From the NCBI RefSeq assembly GCF_019263745.1, contig NZ_CP077107.1:1-64000 (forward strand): DNA of 64,000 nt. Direction: 5' to 3'. Shown here piece by piece: positions 11,377 through 35,884 of this stretch. Each line of letters starts with the position of its first letter. The first letter of the stretch is position 1. The stretch comes from Methanospirillum hungatei. GTDB taxonomy: Archaea; Halobacteriota; Methanomicrobia; Methanomicrobiales; Methanospirillaceae. The notes beneath the pieces are model-generated. The model saw nothing but the letters and a program-made list of their open reading frames with translations. It searched no databases and was not told the DNA's origin. The position numbers and the translations under genes were made by a program.

Positions 11377-11477
11377 ATACATCATATTAAAAATTAACTT
11401 TTAGATTTCCATATAAGGAATTTAGATCAATAGGGCTTTTGGTAATATATCTATTGATTCGAGATCATTAGTACTTG

Positions 11478-12341
11478 ATGTACCTTCTTTTATGTCCCTG
11501 TATAAAAAATCCAGAATTACGTGCAAGGGGAATTACTCATCAAAATGATTTAGATGTCTTTTATCAGGTCTTATTACGATGTAAAACTTTTAAAATATCA
11601 ATAAAAATGCTTCCCTGTGCAGAGACTATTTTTCTTGGACCTAATCATGAACCTGGTCATTTTATTGGCAGACTGGATTCTCCAGATTTTTCTAATCTTA
11701 TATCTAAATTTGAAGATAAGATTCGTGATGAATGGAAAAATGAAGGTTTGCCATATGCGATTATTGGAGTTGATTCATCTCCGGTTTGTGGTGTCCGGTA
11801 CACCTGGTATGGTTCTGTAAATGGTTCTGATGCAAAGATCCCTGGGAGAGGGTTCTTTTTACAACGTTTTCCAGAAATACTTGCATATGATGTTTTTGAA
11901 GCAGCGTGTTGGAAAGTATATCTGGCTGCTCCGTTATTTTCTGAAGCTGAATGCGATTTTAATAGAAAATTAGCTGACATAATATCCGGCTATGCAATGC
12001 AGGTTCATCTTCCCCAGGATTGTGGAGATTCAGAGCATTCACGAACCATTTCTATTCAAAAAGAAATATTTGAAAAAAATCTACAAGCAATTGACAATGC
12101 AGATATTGTTGTTGCAGTAATAGATGGTGCGGATGCAGATTCAGGAACATCATGGGAGATGGGGTATGCATTTGCCCAAAGGAAAAAGATTATTTCACTC
12201 CGAACAGATTTCAGACATGTTGGTTATAATGAGCGGGTGAATCTGATGCTTGAGCAGTCATCAGTGGTTGTGAATGATATTTCATCACTTATTCAGGCCT
12301 TACCCTGTCCAATTCCGATACGGCCATTCAGAGATATGTAA
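11478..12341 (+). CDS. Fusion of a TudS/DUF523-like desulfidase domain and a nucleoside 2-deoxyribosyltransferase-like domain
   Basis: About 287 residues in two parts. The N-terminal part (about 1-140) has CPCIKNPELRARGI at the start and DSSPVCGVRYT near residue 100. These resemble the Cys signatures of DUF523/TudS proteins, which remove sulfur from thiouracil using an Fe-S cluster. The C-terminal part (about 147-287) has VYLAAPLF, DNADIVVAVIDG and SGTSWEMGYAFAQ, the motifs of nucleoside 2-deoxyribosyltransferases (Asp and Glu of the active site visible). A combined role in salvage or repair of thiolated or odd nucleosides is an inference. The start is ATG 11478; a TTG directly before it is also possible. 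Confidence 0.7.
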   Translation: MYLLLCPCIKNPELRARGITHQNDLDVFYQVLLRCKTFKISIKMLPCAETIFLGPNHEPGHFIGRLDSPDFSNLISKFEDKIRDEWKNEGLPYAIIGVDSSPVCGVRYTWYGSVNGSDAKIPGRGFFLQRFPEILAYDVFEAACWKVYLAAPLFSEAECDFNRKLADIISGYAMQVHLPQDCGDSEHSRTISIQKEIFEKNLQAIDNADIVVAVIDGADADSGTSWEMGYAFAQRKKIISLRTDFRHVGYNERVNLMLEQSSVVVNDISSLIQALPCPIPIRPFRDM

Positions 12342-12495: not shown

Positions 12496-12633
12496 TCATT
12501 TTTTTAAAAAATAGGTTTGAATCATTTTTATCGCACAGAATGATCCACACATTGTGCAGTTTGTATCGGTTGGAGTACCTCGTCCAGCCTCTTCCGGGTC
12601 CAGAGCATATATTGCCTGTTCCTGAAAATTCAT
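12496..12633 (-). CDS. Detached C-terminal Fe-S segment of the ThiC-like protein
   Basis: A 45-residue reading frame that starts with ATG overlapping the TGA stop of the ThiC-like gene (ATGA). It contains IYALDPEEAG and then CTMCGSFCAIKM, the cluster of three Cys with which ThiC holds its [4Fe-4S] cluster at the extreme C-terminus (here spaced CX2CX3C). The alignment to ThiC runs straight on from the upstream frame, so both halves derive from one gene. Either the shift is a recent mutation, or the segment is made as a separate peptide by coupled translation or by a -1 frameshift. The last residues after KMI look non-conserved. Confidence 0.65.
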   Translation of the reverse strand: MNFQEQAIYALDPEEAGRGTPTDTNCTMCGSFCAIKMIQTYFLKK

Positions 12634-13700
12634 TCGCGTTCTGTTCTCGGCGATATGTTTGTCCTGGTCGACACTCCGTACTTCATTGAATCTCCAATAT
12701 GGGCGGCAATACGAAAAGCCATGAGTCCTTCTTTCACTTCATCAGGAGTCGGGAGACTTTTATGTTCAGCCCTGGTGATGTAACATAGATAATCTGCCCC
12801 AGCTCCAGCGGAAAATGTTGCGCCAATTGCACCAGTAATATGATCATATCCCATGCCGACATCAGCTGGGAGTGGTCCTGCTACAAAGAGTGGAAAATCA
12901 GTCTTCTCTTTATAGTACCGGACACTTTCAGCTATTTTGTCTGCTCTGATATGTCCTCCGGCCCCTTCAATTATTACCTGAACTCCTTTCTTATGAGCCC
13001 GCTGTGCCAGCCTGATATTCTCTTCTATCTCCAGAATCTGTGCAGTATCCCGGCTATCATGGATACATCCTGATCTCATTGTATTTCCGAGAGAAAGGAC
13101 GATATTTTTAGATTTCAGTAAGGTAAGAATCTCATCAAAATGGGTAATATAGGGATTTTCCTGATTATTTTTTAGCATAAATGAAGTCATCATCGCTCCT
13201 CCTTTGGAAACAACTCCTAGTATTCGGGAACTGTGTTTCATTGCTTTTATTGTCTCAAATGAAGGGCAATGAAGAACCATTGATGAGATATCTTCTTTGA
13301 CTTGTTCTTTCAGATTTTCAATAATGATATCATCTGTGAGATGATCAAGGGTATTTTCTGCAACTGCCTGGTAGAGAGGGACTGTGGTCATGGGAAGTGT
13401 TGTGACACCAAGTATTGATCGTCTTATTTCTGGAATGTCTCCAGCAGTTGAGAGATCCGTAATAGTGTCTGCACCATAACATTCAGCAATTTTCGCTTTT
13501 TGTATCTCTTCTTCTTGAATACAATGACCGGATGAGGTACCAAGGTTTACATTTATTTTTGTCTTAAGTCCCCTTCCTATTGCAATCCCCTTATCCCCAC
13601 GGTACATAATTGCAATGGATCCTTTTTCCACTCCTTTCTGGACAAATTTATATGGCCTGTTTTCTAAATCGGATATTTTTCTTACTATTAAATTATTCAT
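12630..13700 (-). CDS. thiC: ThiC-like phosphomethylpyrimidine synthase, barrel part lacking its Fe-S tail
   Basis: 356 residues. ThiC converts aminoimidazole ribotide to the HMP-P moiety of thiamin by radical SAM chemistry. The sequence GTSSGHCIQEEEIQKAKIA, the GADTITDLSTAGD segment and TTLPMTTVPLYQA are classic ThiC barrel motifs, followed by EGAGGH and PLFVAGPLPADVG. The reading frame stops just before the Cys cluster, which continues in the -1 frame at 12633-12496. Without that cluster the protein could not do ThiC chemistry. A thiD kinase lies at 31046-31843. An inverted repeat at 13750-13777 is the likely operator of its promoter. It may be a pseudogene, a split gene or a frameshifted gene. 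Confidence 0.85.
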   Translation of the reverse strand: MNNLIVRKISDLENRPYKFVQKGVEKGSIAIMYRGDKGIAIGRGLKTKINVNLGTSSGHCIQEEEIQKAKIAECYGADTITDLSTAGDIPEIRRSILGVTTLPMTTVPLYQAVAENTLDHLTDDIIIENLKEQVKEDISSMVLHCPSFETIKAMKHSSRILGVVSKGGAMMTSFMLKNNQENPYITHFDEILTLLKSKNIVLSLGNTMRSGCIHDSRDTAQILEIEENIRLAQRAHKKGVQVIIEGAGGHIRADKIAESVRYYKEKTDFPLFVAGPLPADVGMGYDHITGAIGATFSAGAGADYLCYITRAEHKSLPTPDEVKEGLMAFRIAAHIGDSMKYGVSTRTNISPRTERE

Positions 13701-13749
13701 TTCTTTTTCTGGAGGTAGTTATTTTACAATATTTGGCAGTGCTGAAGTA

Positions 13750-13777
13750 TGCACCATATTATTTTGTTGTTGGTGCA
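13750..13777. promoter_or_regulatory. Inverted-repeat operator, copy 1 (TGCACCA-N14-TGGTGCA)
   Basis: Perfect 7-bp arms with a 14-bp AT-rich spacer that contains a TATA-like stretch, centred about 64 bp upstream of the ThiC-like start. Copy 2 has exactly the same arms and spacing, which makes chance unlikely. Confidence 0.75.
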
Positions 13778-13936
13778 TGTCATTTTCTTGGATCTCATTC
13801 TATCTACAACCCTATGAGGATAAAGAGCAATCCAGAAGACTTACAATATGGCTTCCATGATGATAATACTAAATTACTATGATTATATACTGGATAAAAT
13901 GGAAACACATTTACTCTAAAAGAGCCGAAACACTTA

Positions 13937-13967
13937 TGGTGCACCATATTACAATAGTATTGGTGCA
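13937..13967. promoter_or_regulatory. Inverted-repeat operator, copy 2, with an extra overlapping palindrome
   Basis: TGCACCA-N14-TGGTGCA at 13940-13967, the same geometry as copy 1. Its left arm is also the right half of a compact palindrome TGGTGCACCA at 13937-13946, giving three half-sites. It lies between the two divergent genes, about 190 bp from copy 1 and 200 bp before the mptG-fusion start. Confidence 0.75.
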
Positions 13968-14144
13968 CTATCCTCTAACAGCGAAACATGCACCTAGCAC
14001 AGTTTCTTCTGTACAGATCAATTCTGGTAACCCTGGAAAAATCGTACCGATTTTGTAAATTATTAGGTGAATCCATTTTTTATGAGGTCTTTATTTCTTA
14101 TTCTATAATTATGAAACATTTTTCAATACACATCACTCTGATAT

Positions 14145-14151
14145 TGGTGCA
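14145..14151 (+). promoter_or_regulatory. Third TGGTGCA half-site beside the start codon
   Basis: A single TGGTGCA ends 3 nt before the ATG of the chorismate lyase-MptG fusion and is embedded in ATATTGGTGCAATA. It could place a bound repressor over the transcription start. The remainder of 13701-14154 holds no supported gene; the short frames seen there lack any family signature. Confidence 0.5.
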
Positions 14152-14154
14152 ATA

Positions 14155-15690
14155 ATGATGCAGACATCGGTTCTGGAACTTATTAATAAGATAGAACAAG
14201 AATCTGGACAATTAACAAATCCTGAGCGTGCTCTTCTTATAACAGATGGTTCAGTTACCCGGCTTTTGGAGGCATTTGGTAATGCACCAGTCGGTGTCAG
14301 AACAATACAGCAGAATATTATTCAGGCATCAGAAAAAATCGCAGAAATTCTTGAAGTTAAACCCGGTGAAGATGTGAATTTTCGGGAAGTGGATCTGTAC
14401 AATAAAAATAATAATCGTGTTCTGATTCATGCTATCTCATATGCACCATTGAAACATCTTCCGGCGGGTGCAATAACCCGGCTTATGAAAGAAGATGAAC
14501 CGATTGGTATGATAATGCGTGATGAAAAGATGGAATCAAGGAGAGAAATCTTATCAATACAAAAAATTTCTCTCCCATCAGATGACCTGAAAAGGAATCA
14601 AATGGCGAAATTTAATTTGAGCAGATCATACCGGATAATTCATAATTCACGACCGATATTTTTTATTGAAGAACAAATCCCTTTCCCTCTTTTTACTGAG
14701 GATACTGTGGTTAGAGTGATTACTCCTTCTCGACTTCACATCGGGCTTCTTGATATGAATGGTTCAGGAGGCAGAGTCGATGGTGGTTCTGGTATAACTC
14801 TGGAAGATCCTGGTTTTATTTTTGAAATATCAGAAGCAGATACCTTTTCCCTGACCTCACAGGAACCAGAGGTTGCATACCAGGTGCAGCCAATCCTTGA
14901 AAAATTAAACATGAATGGATTGTCGATACCTCCGGTACATATTCACATTCAACAATCTATTCCCTTTCATTTTGGGCTTGGAAGTGGAACCCAGGCAGCT
15001 CTTGGAATTGCGGCCGGGATTGGGACAATGATTGGAGCGAATTTTTCTACAGATGCTCTTATTGCCTTATCCGGAAGGGGAGGAACTTCAGGGATAGGAA
15101 CAAGAGCCTTTTTTATGGGAGGATTACTCGTTGATGCTGGTCACCGGTTTGGCCCTGGCAGAAAGAAGGATTCTTTCGCACCATCAGCCTCATCATCAGG
15201 TGCAGGAGCAGCTCCTCTGGTTGGCCGGTATAATATCCCGAAAGATTGGAATTTCGTACTTGCAATACCTGATGGATTGGCAGAAATTCACGGTCAGTTG
15301 GAATATGATATGTTTCAGAGATACTGTCCTGTTCCACAACATGAAGTTCAGGCTCTTTCTCATATTCTTCTTATGAAACTGATCCCTTCTGTAATCGAAG
15401 AAGATCTGGAACAATTCGGAGAGGCAATTAATGATTTCCAGAATTATGGGTTTAAAAAATGTGAAATCAGTCTTCAGTCACCGGTTATTACGGATATCAT
15501 TGATGCCATGAGGGATGCCGGTGCAGCTGGGGTAGGTATGAGTTCATTTGGACCGGTAGTGTATGGGGTATGTGATTCGAATACGTCTGCTATCATTTCT
15601 TCAGCTCAAAGGATTATGAATCAATGGAAAGGCGGAAAAACGATCTGCACGAAGGGGAGAAATAGGGGTGCTGATATTATGAAAACCTAA
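14155..15690 (+). CDS. mptG: Chorismate lyase-like domain fused to beta-ribofuranosylaminobenzene 5'-phosphate synthase
   Basis: 511 residues with two enzymes of one pathway. Residues about 1-175 match the archaeal chorismate pyruvate-lyase family (DUF98): ALLITDGSVTRLLE, a REV.LY strand, and PIGMIMRDEKMESRREI. Residues about 185-500 are a GHMP-kinase-fold beta-RFAP synthase, with TPSRLHIGLLDMNG, the Gly-rich GLGSGTQAALG near 280, and the C-terminal GVGMSSFGPVVYG. Known chemistry: the lyase makes 4-hydroxybenzoate from chorismate, and the synthase couples it to PRPP with loss of CO2 in methanopterin synthesis. Fusion would hand the intermediate on directly. It is divergent from the ThiC-like gene, with shared operators. 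Confidence 0.88.
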   Translation: MMQTSVLELINKIEQESGQLTNPERALLITDGSVTRLLEAFGNAPVGVRTIQQNIIQASEKIAEILEVKPGEDVNFREVDLYNKNNNRVLIHAISYAPLKHLPAGAITRLMKEDEPIGMIMRDEKMESRREILSIQKISLPSDDLKRNQMAKFNLSRSYRIIHNSRPIFFIEEQIPFPLFTEDTVVRVITPSRLHIGLLDMNGSGGRVDGGSGITLEDPGFIFEISEADTFSLTSQEPEVAYQVQPILEKLNMNGLSIPPVHIHIQQSIPFHFGLGSGTQAALGIAAGIGTMIGANFSTDALIALSGRGGTSGIGTRAFFMGGLLVDAGHRFGPGRKKDSFAPSASSSGAGAAPLVGRYNIPKDWNFVLAIPDGLAEIHGQLEYDMFQRYCPVPQHEVQALSHILLMKLIPSVIEEDLEQFGEAINDFQNYGFKKCEISLQSPVITDIIDAMRDAGAAGVGMSSFGPVVYGVCDSNTSAIISSAQRIMNQWKGGKTICTKGRNRGADIMKT

Positions 15691-34804: not shown

Positions 34805-35884
34805 ATGAGCACAGATACGGTACAGGTTTTGCAGTCGGATGGTTTCAATAAATCGCGATGGACCCAGCTTCCACGGGACGTTCTGATTGGTCATCAGGCA
34901 ATATTGCAACTTCCTGACATCATCGCGGACATCAGACCAGGCCGTTCAGTCCTCATTATATCTGGTGGAACTACCCGTGAAGTTGCGGGTAATGCAGTTG
35001 AAGATATTCTGAAAGACTCATATGATGTCAAGCGGTTTGTCGCTGGAAAACTGGATACAACTACGCTGGAGGCATGTAGTCAGGCCTCAATGTCAACGGA
35101 TTTCCTTATTGGTGTTGGCGGGGGGAGAGTTATTGATTGCGCCAAAATTGTCTCGTACAAGCAGGGCAAGCCCTTCATCAGCGTTCCAACCGCAGCATCG
35201 CATGATGGAATTATTTCAGGGAGGGCAACGCTTCCCACTGAGGCCGGTAGTGTTTCAGTCGGTGCCCATCCCCCGATAGCAGTGGTTGCTGACACGGGAA
35301 TTATCTCACAGGCGCCCCACAGGCTCATGGCATCAGGGTGTGCTGATGTCATCTCCAATTATACTGCCATCCTTGATTGGGAACTGGCCCACCGGCTCAG
35401 GGGAGAACAGATCAGCGAATATGCCATTGCTCTTTCAAAGATGACTGCCGAGATTCTGGTTAAAGATGCAAATCTGATAAAGCCAGGTCAGGAAGAAGCA
35501 GCCTGGATTGTGGTAAAAGCATTGGTATCATCTGGTGTGTCAATGGCGATTGCTGGTTCATCACGCCCGGCTTCCGGTGGTGAACATAAATTTGGTCACG
35601 CTCTTGAACGTTTAATCCCTGGTGCAGCTCTTCATGGTGAAGCATGCGGCATTGGATCTATTATGACGATGTATCTGCATGGAGGAGACTGGCGGGAGAT
35701 TCGATCATCGCTCGCCCGCATTGGTGCACCAACCACTCCAAAAGAATTGAATATTCCTGATGAAATCGTTATAGAAGCACTCCTGAAAGCTAGGGATATC
35801 CGGCCTGAACGATATACTATCCTTGATATGGGCCTGACACGAGAATCCGCTGAACATCTTGTGCAAATGTTATATGAAGCGTGA
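34805..35884 (+). CDS. egsA: sn-Glycerol-1-phosphate dehydrogenase
   Basis: 359 residues. Makes sn-glycerol-1-phosphate from dihydroxyacetone phosphate, the step that sets archaeal lipid stereochemistry. GVGGGRVIDCAKI near residue 105 is the NAD(P) loop, PTAASHDGIISGRA follows, and the Zn ligands are in the ASGCADVISN, SGGEHKFGHALE and ALHGEACGIGS segments. The length is normal for the family. Three other ether-lipid genes are in the window (geranylgeranyl reductase, carS and a Tes-like gene). The 14-bp gap to the divergent DUF63 gene implies that the promoter elements lie within coding sequence or that leaders are minimal. Confidence 0.96.
   Translation: MSTDTVQVLQSDGFNKSRWTQLPRDVLIGHQAILQLPDIIADIRPGRSVLIISGGTTREVAGNAVEDILKDSYDVKRFVAGKLDTTTLEACSQASMSTDFLIGVGGGRVIDCAKIVSYKQGKPFISVPTAASHDGIISGRATLPTEAGSVSVGAHPPIAVVADTGIISQAPHRLMASGCADVISNYTAILDWELAHRLRGEQISEYAIALSKMTAEILVKDANLIKPGQEEAAWIVVKALVSSGVSMAIAGSSRPASGGEHKFGHALERLIPGAALHGEACGIGSIMTMYLHGGDWREIRSSLARIGAPTTPKELNIPDEIVIEALLKARDIRPERYTILDMGLTRESAEHLVQMLYEA

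Follow-up and report, generated by a model that had tools for sequence, protein, structure and literature searches.

A paired-site array between divergent thiC-like and mptG genes of Methanospirillum hungatei is a probable promoter-operator for an RHH-acyl-CoA synthetase fusion

Which regulator acts on the shared upstream region of two divergent genes in Methanospirillum hungatei, where two inverted repeats of the same geometry are found? The window, i.e., the whole stretch of 64,000 nucleotides that was analysed, carries a thiC-like gene on the minus strand (12496..13700; PF01964) and, head to head with it, an mptG fusion gene on the plus strand (14155..15690). As placed in the initial annotation, the sites lie between this divergent ThiC-family gene and the methanopterin gene. 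The genome has three ThiC paralogues, of which the thiC-like gene is the third; to judge from its intact orthologue, it is the one that ThiC models score lowest. Its reading frame shifts by one base near 12640; as an uninterrupted ORF it spans 12630-13700 and ends at 12630, and the CTMCGSFC cluster motif runs on in another frame. Orthologues in relatives are intact, without the frameshift, which is either a sequencing error or the mark of a young pseudogene. In the mptG product, a Rv2949c-like chorismate pyruvate-lyase domain is joined to beta-RFA-P synthase (MptG), which suggests that methanopterin synthesis is fed by 4-hydroxybenzoate from chorismate. Elsewhere in the window, the ORF at 11475-12341 combines a TudS-like N-terminal part with a nucleoside 2-deoxyribosyltransferase domain. 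By eye, the sequence before one mptG-fusion copy of another Methanospirillum genome (G006, L030) seems to end in a protein related to this ORF.

Both TGCACCA-N14-TGGTGCA repeats described previously were recovered, at 13750-13777 and 13940-13967, with perfect arms and a spacer of 14 bp each. Operator 1 (13750..13777, no strand assigned) is situated on the thiC-like side, 50 bp before the thiC-like start. Operator 2 (13937..13967, likewise unstranded) is situated on the mptG side and includes TGGTGCACCA (13937-13946), which overlaps the repeat at 13940-13967 as had been noticed. It is abutted by a BRE/TATA-like element, CGAAACACTTATG (13927..13939, plus strand), a putative promoter element that points to mptG. 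The third half-site is also where the initial annotation had seen it: a lone TGGTGCA on the plus strand (14145..14151) ends 3 nt before the ATG of mptG at 14155. In total, the intergenic region of 454 bp (13701-14154) contains six exact half-sites, compared to a mean of 0.07 and a maximum of 2 in 2000 dinucleotide shuffles, and two inverted repeats, compared to none in all 2000 dinucleotide shuffles. For the window as a whole, 26 half-sites were counted against 7.7 expected, many of them in coding DNA, and for this reason a lone half-site within a gene means little. A repeat in the mptG coding DNA (at 15177 with two mismatches, perfect in the relatives G001 and G003) was taken as coding sequence.

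In the genome of 3,393,136 bp, a scan for the perfect repeat returned exactly two copies, both in the array, with a chance expectation of about 0.01 per genome (3.39 Mb / 4^14). Two further copies have one mismatch; one lies within a gene and the other just upstream of a response-regulator gene. If spacers of 12 to 16 bp are allowed, the paired-site pattern is found at four places only, namely both array sites, the response-regulator promoter and the promoter of a gene encoding an RHH domain fused to an acyl-CoA synthetase (RHH-synthetase). The site is thus far from randomly placed, against the random scatter that had been considered. TGGTGCACCA occurs nine times in the genome: once in the array, once at 35722 and seven times at places whose context was read, of which one is the RHH-synthetase promoter, four are within ORFs and two (1093055 and 2805906) are beside ORF starts.

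Among 12 genomes of the genus, the head-to-head thiC-like/mptG pair was found in three (this one, G001 and G003), and the array is present in all three. By inference, this sustains the earlier proposal of a dedicated operator array for both divergent genes. Across the three genomes, 27/28 columns of the arms of both sites are invariant, compared to 13/28 columns of the spacers and 48/149 columns of the DNA between the sites. For operator 1 the values are 13/14 (arms) and 8/14 (spacer), for operator 2 14/14 and 5/14, and the single changed arm base belongs to site 1 of G001. The two close relatives have retained the arms, and their spacers and flanks have diverged. The CGAAACACTTATG element is invariant in 12 of 13 columns, and the lone half-site before mptG has one base changed in G001 and in G003. 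Where the genes stand apart, the array is missing, both upstream of the mptG fusion (G002, G004, two copies in G006, G010 and G011) and upstream of the thiC-like gene (G004, G010 and G011); therefore, it goes with the divergent pair. One perfect half-site precedes a partial mptG copy in G007. Random scatter and absence from orthologues had both been named as findings that would speak against the array. Its placement in the genome is non-random, but the site is indeed absent upstream of the orthologues in more distant Methanospirillum species. Species of the genus that lack the array at their thiC-like/mptG genes do have the RHH-synthetase.

Operator 2 is followed by a conserved block (13968..14053, plus strand), possibly the leader of mptG, which occurs at this locus only, in three of the 12 genus genomes. 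With 72/86 columns invariant in these three, the block is better conserved than the other intergenic DNA. Its hairpin z is about -2.9 in G001 and G003 and -1.2 in this genome, and its comparison with Rfam gave no match at the gathering score, only low scores far below the cut-offs. A short frame can be read through the block in the three genomes; however, a short protein is not favoured because the frame contains an indel and the differences fall on every codon position.

To place the site in the order, YGCACCA-N14-TGGTGCR was searched in 232 Methanomicrobiales genomes and matched in 43. Thirty N14 loci were examined: 18 are on RHH-synthetase gene starts, three upstream of an acyl-CoA (acetate/propionate) ligase and two upstream of an acetate uptake transporter, so that 23/30 are acyl-related. 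The remaining seven (L072, L089, L090, L092, L093, L094 and L099) have no acyl-related gene and look like chance. Matches beyond these 30 were considered only where they fell at genes under study for other reasons, and a search of the order with one mismatch allowed gave too much noise to be useful. The family was then collected with a profile of the RHH domain, i.e., by protein and not by motif, which avoids circularity. This profile matched in 125 of the 232 genomes, and the 115 matches at E 1.2e-15 or better, from 19 genera, were defined as the family. An open frame of at least 358 aa is present in 113 of the 115; the other two lie at contig ends.

An exact half-site (TGGTGCR/YGCACCA) was found within 100 bp upstream of 113/115 RHH-synthetase genes (110 distinct upstreams, two duplicates and one added later), although the 115 genes are related and the genomes are not independent trials. 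As controls, shuffled upstreams had a half-site in 5.2/110 and the stretch 150-250 bp upstream in 15/110, and of nine paralogues without the RHH domain none had a half-site at -100..-1. In the usual promoter layout, TGGTGCR (near -53) and YGCACCA (near -21) flank an A-rich, promoter-like stretch, and a third arm, TGGTGCG, falls in the first codons, where Met-Val-Arg partly dictates its sequence. CGAAACAC stretches, which are similar to CGAAACACTTATG, precede the site in several of these promoters. The spacers range from 12 to 16 bp across the family; consequently, a spacer of exactly 14 bp is not obligatory. Two genes, both from genus g9 (L298 and L300), lack an exact half-site and have TGGTTC and GAACCA at similar places. 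In the same genus, the RHH strand reads MGR instead of MVR alongside the change of the half-site from TGGTGC to TGGTTC, a possible co-variation of protein and site in these sequences. RHH_1 (PF01402) scored above the cut-off in two of four scanned fusion proteins from other genera, and the best solved relative of the enzyme part, searched with an RHH-synthetase of the order, is 3etc of Methanosarcina (E 5e-121). Among the papers listed in searches on ThiR, RHH regulators, trigger enzymes, acyl-CoA synthetase, methanopterin and acetate regulation in Methanomicrobiales, no report of the fusion or of the operator was found.

M. hungatei possesses a single RHH-synthetase gene (G000:C1:2171257-2172765, minus strand), which adjoins genes for pyruvate/2-oxoacid:ferredoxin oxidoreductase. 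Its promoter carries TGGTTCA at -52, TGGTGCACCA at -21 to -12 and TGGTTCG at the start, and the spacer of the paired site is 12 bp, not 14. In the 623-aa protein, PF00501 and PF13193 place a catalytic domain on the same chain, and the synthetase part is nearest to the MbcS and acetate-ligase models, below their cut-offs. The RHH domain of this protein was not recognised by Pfam at E 0.001. A model of the RHH stretch (53 residues, mean pLDDT 77) aligns with the PutA, NikR and CopG domains with a Z of about 6, and the Foldseek E-values are weak.

Beyond the fusion gene itself, the site was observed at two other kinds of genes. In genus g12, 14 acyl-CoA ligase genes were found by protein in 13 genomes, and in each of the 14, TGGTGC overlaps the start codon and a half-site lies further upstream. 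The exact N14 repeat is present in 8/14; in several others, the spacer differs by one base or the upstream DNA is incomplete. The mptG gene of the window is laid out likewise, with a repeat upstream and a half-site at its start. One of the 13 genomes, G198, has a perfect operator at its acyl-CoA ligase gene (L333) and no RHH-synthetase in the profile list. The second kind is the response-regulator gene near G000:C1 3191598, with its one-mismatch site upstream (L004:1501-1528); upstream of this gene, G005 and G009 carry a perfect site and G001 and G003 carry TGGTGCACCA. Its convergent neighbour is a gene that, as read by eye, resembles an ADP-forming acyl-CoA synthetase.

Since the array sites match the control sites before its own gene, the RHH-synthetase is the likely switch for the thiC-like and mptG genes. 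The sequences show the presence and conservation of the sites, their occurrence together with the fusion gene and the domains of its product; from this sequence evidence, we infer binding, sign and effector as follows. The array is probably the promoter-operator of both divergent genes and would be bound by the fusion protein encoded elsewhere in the genome. TGGTGCA half-sites would be bound by dimers of the N-terminal RHH domain, and one operator would consist of two half-sites about two helical turns apart. Most simply, the bound protein would block the start of transcription, i.e., act as a repressor, because operator 2 abuts the BRE/TATA-like element. As in PutA, the DNA-binding part would be released or repositioned when the synthetase domain sensed its acyl substrate, the acyl-adenylate or the product. 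The RHH-synthetase would also control its own gene and the response-regulator gene. The same site marks RHH-synthetase promoters across the order, and for this reason both the regulator and its signal are probably part of acyl-CoA metabolism. Acetate, or else a different short acyl acid, is the probable signal, because the sites in another genus precede acyl-CoA ligase and acetate-transporter genes. As to a link with the thiC-like gene, thiamin diphosphate might be required by the 2-oxoacid oxidoreductase encoded next to the fusion gene, an enzyme that uses acetyl-CoA.

The half-site might instead be used by some other DNA-binding protein, such as a stand-alone RHH protein; the RHH-synthetase gene would then be only one of its targets and the RHH domain would have another role. 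Other RHH-like matches, in short frames, do occur in some genomes of the order, the operator of G198 stands in a genome without a listed RHH-synthetase, and the DNA-binding proteins of M. hungatei were examined in part. However, the site is fixed upstream of one family, as expected of self-regulation, and in genus g9 the strand residues and the half-sites changed together. Thus, we consider a separate binding protein unlikely. ThiR, the archaeal regulator of thiamin genes, consists of an HTH and a ThiN domain, and a thiamin- or pterin-responsive regulator of this type had been suggested in the initial annotation to control both genes. The suggestion agrees with the neighbours of the sites, as one is a ThiC-family gene and the product of the other synthesises a precursor of methanopterin. 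Yet a paired site is missing from the 350 bp upstream of both other thiC genes, and the remaining places of the site are not at thiamin genes, with no further paired site genome-wide. In addition, no protein with HTH and ThiN was found in the genome, where the sole ThiN-domain match (PF10120) is an ORF of 190 aa that has no room for an extra DNA-binding domain. Control by a ThiR-type protein is therefore very improbable, and the suggestion was abandoned.

The repeats might also act in RNA, as hairpins of a leader element or a terminator, and not as DNA sites. This would fit the conserved block after operator 2, which in G001 and G003 folds better than shuffles; in M. hungatei the leader folds weakly and, as stated above, Rfam gave no match at the gathering score. 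Moreover, the same arms are found in many promoters with unrelated spacers, before genes on either strand, and some overlap start codons, which makes a role as RNA even less credible than a ThiR-type regulator. Least probable of all is that the half-sites cluster by chance or that the array is a functionless relic. Half-sites are frequent in the window, and a similar repeat occurs inside the mptG coding DNA of two relatives, but six half-sites in the intergenic region greatly exceed the shuffled expectation, and the conservation of the arms relative to the DNA between the sites contradicts a relic.

The RHH-synthetase thus remains our preferred regulator of the array. With somewhat less confidence, we lean towards a regulon that extends over the order and is run by a self-regulating RHH-synthetase reading its own substrate pool. 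In the M. hungatei group, its operator may have been newly recruited to the thiC-like/mptG pair, which would tie cofactor synthesis to the supply of acyl compounds (acetate). If true, a regulator, an operator and a testable signal can be named for carbon assimilation in Methanomicrobiales, and an existing operator has been recruited to new genes within one genus. Like PutA, the fusion would be a natural example of a metabolic enzyme that bears an RHH domain and regulates its own gene.

Several known systems share features with the proposed one. The enzyme part of the RHH-synthetase resembles 3etc, an archaeal acyl-CoA synthetase of the medium-chain / 2-methylbutyrate type from Methanosarcina, but the match starts at query residue 68, after the RHH part. 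In the NikR operator, the arms are about two helical turns apart. The array likewise has inverted arms with a long spacer, and the RHH folds are alike (Z 6.0 to 2hza); however, no nickel-binding domain was matched in the fusion, and the partner domain is AMP-binding. The closest parallel is trifunctional PutA, described in PMC5293562 as a proline-catabolic enzyme with an RHH domain that is the autogenous repressor of the put regulon. Both proteins carry an N-terminal RHH domain on a metabolic enzyme and have sites of one kind upstream of their own gene, and the RHH fold matches the PutA chains 2gpe and 2rbf. They differ in the enzyme, here an acyl-CoA synthetase (the Pfam scan of the protein from this genome found AMP-binding domains only and neither proline dehydrogenase nor P5C dehydrogenase domains), in the half-site, here TGGTGCA, and in the host, here an archaeon. 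By analogy, the best reading is a PutA-like, self-regulating trigger enzyme of short-chain acyl metabolism of the acetate type, whose control would be extended here to the thiC-like and mptG genes.
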